DNA of 64,000 nt. Origin: Siphonodentalium dalli. Its lineage: Eukaryota; Mollusca; Scaphopoda; Gadilida; Siphonodentaliidae. Where the stretch lies: assembly GCA_032622095.1 (NCBI GenBank), contig CP136062.1:17859739-17923738 (forward strand), given 5' to 3'. Of the stretch, positions 7,371 to 34,500 are shown one piece after another (position 1 is the first letter of the stretch; each line of letters begins with the position of its first letter). A program made the position numbers and the translations under genes. Under the pieces are notes generated by a model, which was not told the DNA's origin, did no database searches, and saw only the letters and a list, made by a program, of their open reading frames with translations.

Positions 7371-7548
7371 TCAAGGAAATCTGCGGGTGGAGCTGCGGGT
7401 GCCATAACTATGATTTTGTGAATGTCGAGCAGGACGTTGCACTGATCTGTCAGGACTTTTGCTCTTCTTTAATTCTTCTACTGTCACTCCTTTATCAGCC
7501 AGCTCCTCTTTGACTCGTTGGAGATACGTTTTATCTGGGTACCCAAAA
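7371..7548 (-). CDS. Exon E: end of DTC domain and C-terminal tail, stop TGA
   Basis: This 178-bp terminal exon follows acceptor atatttttag, 20.9 kb away from exon D. The split codon gives Asn, then [20 protein letters not shown], the expected end of a DTX3-like DTC domain (GGPE-x-xGYPDxxYLxRVKEEL). The remaining ~38 residues (Lys/Ser/Arg-rich, ending RSSTRRFP) match nothing I recognise. TGA is at 7373-7371. A TA-flanked MITE begins 33 bp past the stop, so the 3' UTR probably runs into or is shaped by it; I could not pick a clear AATAAA. The first 36 bp of the exon, with its acceptor, are repeated upstream in 65-bp steps. Confidence 0.9.
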
Positions 7549-10500
7549 CTAAAAATATTAACAATACATTATTTTAGACTCGTTGGAGGTACGTTTTATC
7601 TGGGTACCCAAAACTAAAAATATTAGCAATACATTATTTTAGACTCATTGGAGGTATGTTTGAAATGGGTACCCAAAGCTAAATATATTAACAATATATG
7701 ATGTTTGACTTGTTGGAGGTACATTTCATTCAAGTATCCAAAGCTGTAAAATATGATTACACTTACACGTGGGGACAAAATGCAAGTTGTTAATACATTG
7801 AATGAATTTTATGGTAAATATTGCCGTCTAAGCCTTCACTAAGTATTTGTACCTATTAATAAAGTCCATAATCTTCGTTTAACATATAAGTAAAATTCCA
7901 ATTTCTTAGGTCAAATAAATTTTTAAAGCATGCGGTTACCAGTGATGACTTTTTGAAAAACAAAGAGGTATAACTCTTTAATGGAAATTGTGAACAACGT
8001 CAATGAACCGTCATTTGAAGCCCTCCTGATGCCAAACATGCAAACCAAATTTCATCGAGATCCAATAACAGATGGTCGAGATATATGAGCAGACGGACAC
8101 AAGGATGAATGAATGGACAGACGGACGGCCCGATAAACGCATGTAATCCAGTATACCCCCATAATTACACAGGAGATTCCATAATTGTAACCGATGAAAA
8201 GCCAAATCGCTCATAAAGTCACTTAAAATGTGCAAGTGAAGTATGTTATTTAGGAACAGAACATAACTAAAATATATATTCCCCGCATTATTTTTCGACT
8301 TTATAAGGTTCCCTGTGAAAACAAAAAAAAGTTCCCATGTTTTGTACTGGTGGCATATGATCTCTATGGGCGTAAGCCAGAGTAGAGATTCATGGTATGA
8401 TCTAACATGTAACGTACTAGAATAACATGAGATTGATGAGTATAAAGTACTTCACACAGCTGGTGCATGATACAGTACAAAGTATTTGGGAAGATAAAAT
8501 TGTTGTAACTAAATATATTGAGAACGATATTTTTTAGAATGGGAAACTAAGACATATTACGCCATATTGGCAACATCTATTGGTTTTATGCCGAGTTGAC
8601 ATTGGGCCTGGTACACTCAAGTTCCACAGATTCAGTCCACTGGAATTTTGAAAACAGCATTTTCCACCCAGCATATATGTGACCCGCCATATCAAATCCA
8701 GTCGTAAGTCGGGATTTTTTTACCCTGTGCCAATGCATTCTCTTATATATGCGAGTCGACCATAGGTCGCCTCGCATATATAAGAGAATGCATTGGCCTA
8801 ACAATTTTTTACAATTTTAATAATTTTTTCTTGTATTCTTTAACAATTTTATAATTTCACCCATACAGAGCCCCAGACAAACATGAGCAGACCACACTCT
8901 TCTATATGCTTCTATATATGTGTGGGGCTCCCTGCAGGGTTATGGATGTTTTTTATTTTAATACTAGGCCAACTAAATCAATTTTTGTGTGTGTATGCAA
9001 TTGTGACTAAGTATAATTAAATACATCGAAACAAAAGTGTTTACCCAATCACAGAGCCGCAAACAAAAGGTAACGAGACTGAAACTGATAGATTTAATTT
9101 AGGAAGAGGGAAATAGTGTACGGGTTTTTCCAGGAATTACCATAACTAATCTAATTTTCTATCGCACATAATTATTTTGCCGATTGCTTCGTGTAATCAT
9201 TCCAAATCCCGCGATCATAAAGGAATGCCAACTATTCAAGGGTTTTCCAACATTTCAAGGATTTATACATACCCTATTATTCAAGTGTTTTCAATGAGTT
9301 TAGGTGAAATACAAGGTTATTCAAGGGCCTTGAAAATGGATTTTCATATTCAAGGGTGTTCAAGGAGCCGTGGTAACCATATTTATTGATATTAGTACAA
9401 GTCAATTTTCCTTCTCTTTGAAGACTGCCGACATCTTTTATCAATTGAAAACTAGGATCCTTATGATGCATGCCATATAAAGGTATGTGTTACGCTTTAC
9501 AACACCAGTTATCCTACGTTGTTGTGCGCAGAAAGTAACGTCCTGTGTGGAGCCACAAAATAAGCGGCGTCATATTTCTGTCTATCAATTAACTTTTTTG
9601 CGGACGAAAAAAACAAAAATCTGGTAGTACCCTTTGTGGCATATACCCTGGCATCCACAGGCAGTATTTTTCAGTAACCTACAGTAATGCCCTAAGTAAT
9701 CCACTCCATAACCACAGCAGAATTATAGGTAACTTTTCAGGATTTAGTCAGAAATATGGATTGTTGCCATTCATCGGAAAGCTCTCGGGAAGAGCTTTCC
9801 GATGAATGGCAACAAGCCATATTTCGACTAAATCCTGAAAATTTACCCATAATTCTGCTGTGGTTATGGAGTCGATTACTTAGGGCATTACTGTATCCTT
9901 AGAATTATTGAAATTATCACCATATCAATGCGACAGTTTCTGTTTTCAAAGTAACTTTCTTCACTTCGGTGGCACTTTTTGCCATTAAAACTCACAAGGG
10001 CGCAAAGCTGTCATTACACGTGTGATAAGTACTCTATTAATCATCGTTTACAACAACCCACCTGCATGATCTCTTAGGGTAATTCCAAATAAATCCAATT
10101 TCCATTGTCATATATTTCATCAAAAGAGGGTAACAAGTGAGCACTCATGGATAACATGTGCGCATGGAATGATAATATTGTGCGCATTTTTTCGTAGTTG
10201 GTGGATGGATAACATGTGCGCAGATTAATTCATTACGTTTTGCTCAATTTAGGATTGATATTGAGATGTCTTTGGTGCAATAGATGAACAGCCATTCTAG
10301 AATCAACATGAGATTACAAATAAGCGAAATACAGTAATGTCCTAAATAATTGACTTCTTAACCACAGCATAATTTAGTCAGAATTAGAGTCGATTATTTA
10401 GGGCATTACTGTATTTCCGAACATCCAAATCGTGTGATCAAATACAGGGAGTTGTTTCTGGACCAACATACTGGAAAATGGAAATATATGATGAAGTCTG

Positions 10501-31500: not shown

Positions 31501-34500
31501 CAGATATGTATTATCAGTTTGACAGACAGTTGTGTCTGATTATATTTCCCAAACTGTACACTTTTTTAATAAATGATGGGGAATCAATTTAGTAAAGAAA
31601 TTGTTAACCCTATAATAAATACTCAGGAAATGTTCAGATAATAATTTCAACAAATGTCATTTGCTAGGTTGAACTTATCATCTGAACTTACCCAGCAAAG
31701 AATATAAATCCTTTTGCACTTGTATTTTCTCATCTACTCATTTTCCTAAACACCCCCTCCAATTTAATAGTAGATGATTCCAATGTATACTATTAAACTG
31801 AATGGGAGAATCCATTTAGTGAAGAGTTAAACTTACCTGCGCACAGTATCGGGAAAGTAACAGAATGTAGCTTATATGCATCAATGGTTGTGAAAACTTT
31901 CTTAATACAGTCCGAGAAAATGGGAGAATCCATTTATAAAAGAAAGGGTTAAACTTACCTGCACACAGTATCGGGAAGGTAACCGTCTGTAGCCCGTATT
32001 CACTGATACTTGTGAAAACATTCTTAATACAGTCCCAGAAAATATTCTCAAATTTGTCGTTTTCACTTCGATATCCTGGTAAAACAACATGGACAACATG
32101 TCGAGTAGGCAGATTTCCACCACATGTTATGAAAACAGTCCCGAGTTTATCTTCATGCATGGAAGCCATCTCCGACAAATGATCCTCATAATCCTTTCCT
32201 CCTTTCTTTTTCACAGCAGTTTGTAAATATCCGTTAGAACTCCTGTTCCATCCAATCACTATACAGTCGGTATTTACTTTTAGTAAATCACCTTTGTAAC
32301 CATAAATCATTGTTTTGCTCAATTCACACATGTCAGCCTCAGTACCATTATCCAATTTAATTTTTTTGTATCGTTCGATCTTCTCACTTTTGGATTCCTT
32401 CATTTCATCATCAACCATCACATAGCTGTCAATCTGTAGGTTCTCTGACATACCATCTCCTTGTTGATAATGTGAGTCGACACCGTGGTAGACTGATTGA
32501 TCAATGGGGTTCACTATGGGTGAATTCTTTTGGAATTCTGTATCGATCAAGGAAAGCATTTCCTCGCTAACATCAATAAAATGGATCACCTCCAGCATTG
32601 AGTTTGAAGTTCTGTGTTCGCTGTAGTATCGTGCTGCATCAGCGTAAACCTTAGCACAATGCCGCTTCGGTACTCTGTAGATACCTAATGTTAAAAGAGA
32701 TCATAACATTCACATCGGACCTATGATCTATGTGCACTAATGTTAAAGAAAAGATTTAATTTTGCCTAGTAACATTTAAAGAAATATTCATGGTTCCAGG
32801 CCTCCATGCAGTTACAACATAACATATTTTTGCATTATTCCAATGAAAAAGAAATTGTGAAAACCCAAATGTGACATATAAACTAGACACATTACACACA
32901 CTCCAATATGTCATATAACCCTTGCAAAAAGAAATCCGAGCTATTTTAAAGAAGTTTGGGAATCCTAGGAATTCATAGGATTTCCAAGGTTTGAACCAAG
33001 CTTTTTGAATGAAAATATTTACTCTTCAACAAAGTTTGGAAATCCTTGGTTGGAACCTTGGTAAAGCTTAGTAAAGCTTGGATCTAAGTTTTACCAAGCT
33101 TTACCAAGCTTTACCAAGGTTGTCACATAAAGTGAAACCTTGGAAAAGCTTGGAAAAGCTTGGAAATCCTTGACTCAGTGTTGACCAACCTTGGTAAAGC
33201 TAAGTAAAGCTTGGATCTAATATTTACTAAGCTTTTCCAAGCTTTACCAAGGTTCTTACATGAAGTTTGAAAAGCTTGGAAATCCTTGGAAAAGCTTGGT
33301 AAAGCTTAGTTGTAGGTCACATGACTGGGTCACATGACTATGCAGACGTCACTGTTGTATGTGGCAGCATTTTGAATTAACTGTTGCACTGAGTTTAAAT
33401 CCATGCTTTATCACAACAATTTTCACGTAAGTTATTGTTTGTGTGGCCATGATGTTTTCTATTTTACTCATAGCATATGGCTGTACATGTAGTGATATTT
33501 TTATTTATGATATTATTTTAACAATTGTTTTACCATTTCCAAGACTGACCTTAAGGACCACTATCTACCTTTTCATTCAAAAGGCTTGTCCATATCATTA
33601 TTTATTTATAGCTAATTTATCTAATTTAACTGTTTTATCACACTCCAAATACCTCAGATCCATAAACATATACCTGTGAATATTATTCTATACATTTTAC
33701 ATGGTATAAGGTACCATTTATCTCAATCTAAATAGAATAACAAAATTCTGACTGAAAAGTGAACTTTGAATGAATATCATGAATGATTATATGGCATGGT
33801 TCATGACTGTTTTAAATTTCAAGAGATTGTATCATTAATGATGATGATATTGTCAAAGTTGAAGCCTTTGCAGTGTCATTAGAGATTTTCACCTTTTAAA
33901 TACAAAACAATTGCAACCTTGGTAAAGCTTGGTAAAGCTGGGTTGCAACCTTGACCAAGGTCGTTTACAACCTTGGTAAAGCTTGGTAAAGTTAGGTTGG
34001 AAAGCTTGGTAAAGCTTGGAAAAGCTAGGCTGCATCCTTGGTAAAGCTTGGAAAAGCTGAGCTGGAACCTTGGTAAAGCTTGGAAAAGCTAGGCTGGAAC
34101 CTTGGTAAAGCTTGGAAAAGCTAGGTAAAGCTAGGCTGGAACCTTGGTAAAGCTTGGTAAAGCTAGGTAAAGCTAGGCTGGAACCTTGGTAAAGCTTGGT
34201 AAAGCTAGGCTGGAACCTTGGTAAAGCTTGGTAAAGCTAGGTAAAGCTAGGCTGGAACCTTGGTAAAGCTAGGTAAAGCTAGGCTGGAACCTTGGTAAAG
34301 CTTGGTAAAGCTAGGTAAAGCTAGATTGGAAACCTTGGTAAAGCTTGGTAAAGTTATGATTAAGATTTTGTAAAGCTTGGAAATCCTTGGATAAGCTTGG
34401 TAAAGTTATGATTAAGATTTTGTAAAGCTTGGAAATCCTTGGATAAGCTCGGTATAATTTGCTGAGGTATTCCAAGGTTTTCCGAACTTGAAACGTTCCA

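Follow-up and report, generated by a model that had tools for sequence, protein, structure and literature searches.

Tandem copies of probable minisatellite type across splice junctions of a predicted DTX3L/PARP14-like ubiquitin-ligase gene in Siphonodentalium dalli

The stretch of DNA analysed here (the window, 64,000 nucleotides of contig CP136062.1 from the scaphopod Siphonodentalium dalli) holds on its minus strand the 3' part of a gene predicted to encode an immune-type ubiquitin ligase (E3) of the DTX3L/PARP14-like kind, hereafter the host gene. Specifically, the encoded protein has the domain set of such ligases: two macro domains, a RING finger and a Deltex C-terminal domain (Pfam matches: Macro, 8e-44; zf-C3HC4_2, 1e-10; DTC, 1e-54). 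Its five exons, all on the minus strand, form one continuous reading frame with canonical AG and GT at their borders. Exon A (37224-38358), placed by its frame and its Pfam Macro match, carries macro domain 1, and exon B (31959-32684) the end of macro 1 together with macro 2. Exon C (30367-30890) encodes the RING finger and the start of the Deltex C-terminal domain, which continues in exon D (28441-28658) and ends, followed by a tail, in the last exon, E (7371-7548). The D-E intron reaches about 21 kb because it holds, among others, a 6.3-kb tandem duplication (15179-27800), each copy of which has a transposase-like frame bearing a hAT dimerisation domain.

Tandem copies lie at four of the eight internal junctions of the host gene (the B and C donors and the E and D acceptors), and their units run head-to-tail and include the exon-intron border, as in boundary internal tandem repeats. 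At the B donor (31801-32054, minus strand), a 122-bp unit is present twice, with an outer donor after 31837 (offset 122 bp, 82-83% identity over 125 columns, E = 4e-28 in self-comparison). The C donor occurs in six copies in all, with a unit of about 98-105 bp and 87-90% identity. Its functional and first outer copies (30207-30396, minus strand; offset 105, 87% identity; outer donor after 30262) are split from four further ones (29233-29581, minus strand; donors after 29554, 29456, 29358 and 29260) by an insertion of about 600 bp composed of ~170-bp tandem units and (ACGG)n (29597-30206, no strand assigned), and the gap at this insertion is also found in paralog P2. The E acceptor array (7509-7754, minus strand) comprises four copies of a 65-bp unit, with outer acceptors before 7613, 7678 and 7743 and outer copies that are 96, 82 and 76% identical to the functional one, falling with distance from the exon. 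The D acceptor region has a single old outer copy (28691-28739, minus strand), which still reads like exon D; this copy escapes both TRF and self-search at E ≤ 1e-3 and is 73% identical over 49 bp, with a local score of 23 against 8.7 ± 1.6 in dinucleotide shuffles (0 of 3,000 reached 23). A self-match search of the remaining four internal junctions and the exon A acceptor returned no straddling copy. Self-comparison for B, C and E and the shuffle test for D bear out a preliminary description of the window, which had reported tandem copies at four of eight junctions, and every border it named (7613, 7678, 7743, 31837, 29554 and 30262) is a correct copy border. Its claim that AG or GT is preserved in every copy holds for the covered outer E, C and B copies but fails for D, in which the homologous position reads CAA instead of CAG.

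The same chromosome carries close paralogs of the host gene: P2 (L001, L002), P3 (L003, L004), P4 (L005, L006), a fifth exon B that we call P6 (L174) and the fragments L007-L010. Across this cluster, with the window gene included, the copy number was directly seen to vary between recent paralogs, again as in boundary internal tandem repeats: 3, 3, 3, 4 (window gene), at least 4 and 8 (L010) for the E acceptor; 6 (window gene), 6, 3, 3 and at least 7 for the C donor; and 2, 2, 2, 1 and 1 for the B donor, which is duplicated in the window gene, P3 and P4 and single in P2 and P6. The old D outer copy also recurs in four other gene copies. Arrays common to close paralogs but differing in copy number must have been inherited; they are older than the recent gene copies and still changing, and the four events are therefore not independent across gene copies. 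In L010, the outer E acceptor copies are 96, 96, 96, 94, 88, 82 and 80% identical to the functional one moving away from the exon, and this fall in identity with distance fits repeated copying of the exon edge. The genome also contains distant relatives of the host gene (45-55% identity; L011-L013), which have no crossing arrays in the regions inspected. Between the two D copies of P3 (L003) and P4 (L005), a new short 24-bp array, which would translate as YNGTHRLI repeats, has grown from the outer D copy.

The duplicated end of exon B probably has a history of a different kind. Of 85 bases, 16 differ between the inner and outer end types, most often at third codon positions (3, 5 and 8 differences by position), which suggests that the two types evolved apart while both were coding and came to lie side by side only later. 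In P2 and P6, the working exon B end matches the window gene's outer copy and not its inner copy, and the outer copy differs from the working end of P2 at only three to four sites, all first and second codon positions. To judge from these substitution patterns, unequal exchange between two gene copies that had diverged, and not self-copying, is the probable origin of the B pair; such an exchange would have set an inner-type exon B end beside an outer-type end, the latter losing constraint since.

To place the host gene in its genomic context, we surveyed 175 donors and 159 acceptors from four families (kinesin, CCT, myosin and ABC), taking exons with their flanks (79 kinesin motor exons; 80 from CCT chaperonin, myosin and ABC transporter genes; 16 further kinesin exons). 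Splice sites were placed by rule, and were checked by eye and corrected only where arrays crossed. A donor was scored as crossed if the exon-side edge of an array lay at least 10 bp inside the exon, and as strictly crossed if the array also included at least 10 intronic bases. By direct count, 14 of the 175 donors of these unrelated conserved genes (8%, or about 1 in 12) have crossing arrays, 11 of them strict, against 3.6 strict crossings expected under uniform placement of array edges (about threefold; P = 1.5e-4, pooled). Very few acceptors are crossed (one strict case observed, 2.1 expected). The excess was first noticed in set 1, whereas sets 2 and 3 were gathered after the prediction had been set down; together, these two gave four strict donor crossings against 1.5 expected (2.6 times, P = 0.046), and the at least four crossings predicted for set 2 amounted to four if arrays with a short intronic part are counted and to three otherwise. 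Near-identical arrays show the excess most strongly (5 strict cases, 0.67 expected). Thus, the junction bias suspected in the preliminary description, which had called for a count of junction-straddling copies against intronic positions, finds some genome-wide support at donors, with no excess at acceptors, to which half of the cases in the host gene belong.

Among the crossed donors, a kinesin donor (L051) carries 14 copies of a 30-bp unit (in three copies of the gene, the exact units number 13, 10 and 13), and a donor at L060 four copies of an 80-bp unit of which 72 bp are exonic; further examples are L055, L035, L072, L108, L111, L118, L139 and L189. The period is divisible by three in 8 of the 14 donor-crossing arrays (P = 0.035 for 8 of 13) versus 4 of 18 intronic ones, a bias that is suggestive only. 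At the acceptors of L051, L071, L075 and L083, several arrays stop about 6 bp or less from the AG, so that the pyrimidine tract and AG are repeated with almost no exon.

Since the same type of repeat is present at about one in 12 ordinary donors, the copies in the host gene look like tolerated minisatellites, not spare splice sites, and within this genome the host gene is an extreme example of a common phenomenon. The four junction copies are thus likely to be minisatellite-type tandem duplications whose outer copies are tolerated, the outer sites being by-products that would mostly break the protein if used. In a genome full of such arrays, these would expand and shrink by unequal exchange; splicing would use the exon-side copy alone, and the outer copies, sitting in the intron and removed with it, would be near neutral, which may explain why arrays persist across splice borders. 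Removal of the outer copy by splicing is a plausible reason for its being tolerated, and tolerance of this kind would account for the survival of crossing arrays. An upstream AG can capture or disturb splicing (compare AG exclusion zones), and donors should therefore suffer less than acceptors. Easier toleration at donors accounts for the asymmetry between donors and acceptors but not for the excess over introns: plain tolerance does not predict that donor crossings should occur at about three times the intronic expectation, let alone the stronger excess of near-identical arrays, and both count against it, as does, more weakly, the retention of AG or GT described below. Possible reasons for the donor excess over intronic arrays are a tendency of exon ends to be duplicated, remaining ascertainment bias, and chance, the sample being modest. 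It is conceivable, and we propose it tentatively, that tandem arrays in this genome arise or persist preferentially at 5' splice sites, with some 8% of conserved-gene donors inside the first unit of an array and acceptors without excess, and that exon ends thereby become replaceable by neighbouring variants, as the two end types of exon B suggest.

A first alternative is pure chance in repeat-rich surroundings, the gene having been chosen since several of its arrays hit junctions. The preliminary description had held that four of eight junctions is hard to put down to chance. At the base rate elsewhere in the genome (4-6% of junctions), P ~ 0.004-0.01 for the three of eight that are TRF-detectable, in a gene picked post hoc; the local density of tandem repeats (an estimated ~18% of the first 44 kb) gives, for the same post hoc choice, P = 0.16 for three and 0.04 for four of eight junctions. 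A symmetric measure, by which 9 of 154 junctions and 89 of 790 intronic points are straddled, also speaks for chance and at first seemed to rule out any bias; it was superseded by the edge-position test because it counts whole arrays at intronic points, whereas a junction can fall only in the exon-edge unit. With whole-array counting corrected, donors do show an excess, and we regard chance as a rather unlikely account.

A second alternative invokes the duplication process itself. Under this model, 5' splice sites, or exon ends generally, would be prone to tandem duplication, for instance through breaks linked to transcription or splicing or through template switching; wholly exonic duplications would be purged and those crossing donors left. 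The pooled and replicated donor excess and its concentration in near-identical arrays argue for such a bias, and crossings at acceptors would be selected against, given that upstream AGs disturb splicing. Conversely, the excess first emerged in set 1, and set 2 by itself reaches only P = 0.06-0.13. Furthermore, where selection maintains the working copy, a junction duplication would seem to decay up to twofold more slowly and would stay detectable for longer; a twofold correction brings the excess to P = 0.02, and a threefold one would bring it to P = 0.12. We consider this explanation unlikely.

The preliminary description had also proposed that the gene carries a reserve of alternative splice sites, which would make the outer copies a maintained set of reserve or decoy sites giving rise to alternative isoforms. 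The predicted products speak poorly for this idea. Use of the outer B donor would add 122 bases and shift the frame, and that of the outer C donor would meet a stop after 22 codons; D has lost its AG, and its use would likewise break the frame or meet stops. The outer E acceptors would truncate the tail, the protein ending after 11-13 residues (two of three) or about 40 residues (the third), although such an mRNA, which leaves the conserved end and then meets a stop in the last exon, could escape decay. Wherever an outer E, C or B copy covers the site (46 copies), the AG or GT is kept, but this is only weakly informative because the outer copies agree with one another at 56% (E) and 76% (C) of all columns, and the sites are no more conserved than so many invariant columns predict. 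An open in-frame extension would result from 5 of the 14 donor arrays in the survey; in others (for example, L111 and L080) the outer donors decay, and P2 and P6 manage without a B copy. On this evidence, a maintained reserve appears very improbable. Expansion or collapse of repeats by assembly error is barely credible, given that private substitutions distinguish the copies and that several paralogs contain the same arrays, with similar arrays present in unrelated genes.

NAGNAG and other tandem splice sites consist of neighbouring, competing AG or GT sites; those described here lie 30-122 bp apart and stem from duplication of the whole border. Boundary tandem repeats as such have a precedent in human segmental duplications, where De Grassi and Ciccarelli (2009) described variable internal tandem repeats at the exon-intron boundaries of genes, with about 7% of these genes having variable repeats (PMC2812944). 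The arrays in S. dalli resemble them in having minisatellite units at exon-intron boundaries, a copy number that varies between recent paralogs and a potential for alternative splice patterns. The human repeats are in young duplicated genes and are in part kept in the transcript, with RNA support (PMC2812944), whereas the present ones, observed in genomic DNA, also occur at 8% of the donors sampled from conserved kinesin, CCT and myosin genes, with an excess at donors. A limited search of the open-access literature found no report of a donor-biased excess of boundary tandem repeats. Splice-site sequences are also multiplied in intron gain by tandem duplication, be it exon duplication with a proto-splice site (Rogers 1989; Lehmann et al. 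2010, PMC2891723) or, according to citations of Zhuo et al. (2007), introns derived from tandem arrays. By contrast, no new intron has arisen here: intron positions are unchanged, each unit contains one existing donor or acceptor, and the host-gene introns are flanked by unlike sequences, with no duplicated proto-splice site supplying both ends of a new intron. Should the donor excess prove true of the whole genome, donors would be a hot spot of minisatellite birth or retention, linking splicing signals to local genome instability and offering a simple route to altered exon ends; if it fails, the window illustrates how readily tandem-rich genomes yield spare-looking splice sites.

Other repeats were observed in and beyond the window. 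A 162-bp satellite unit (52588-64000) forms two long, oppositely oriented arrays, one of 28 copies and one of at least 41, with about 150 bp between them; both 53-bp and 82-bp units form arrays next to these. Short palindromic elements (GCATTCTCTTATATATGCGAG...CTCGCATATATAAGAGAATGC) are scattered at 5294-5524, 8718-8804 and 38714-38804 and also occur in the survey locus L067. Outside the window, two clusters at C2:149826753-150603706 together contain about 100 protein kinase domains; these are nearly identical to one another and mostly spaced 2-3 kb apart on one strand.
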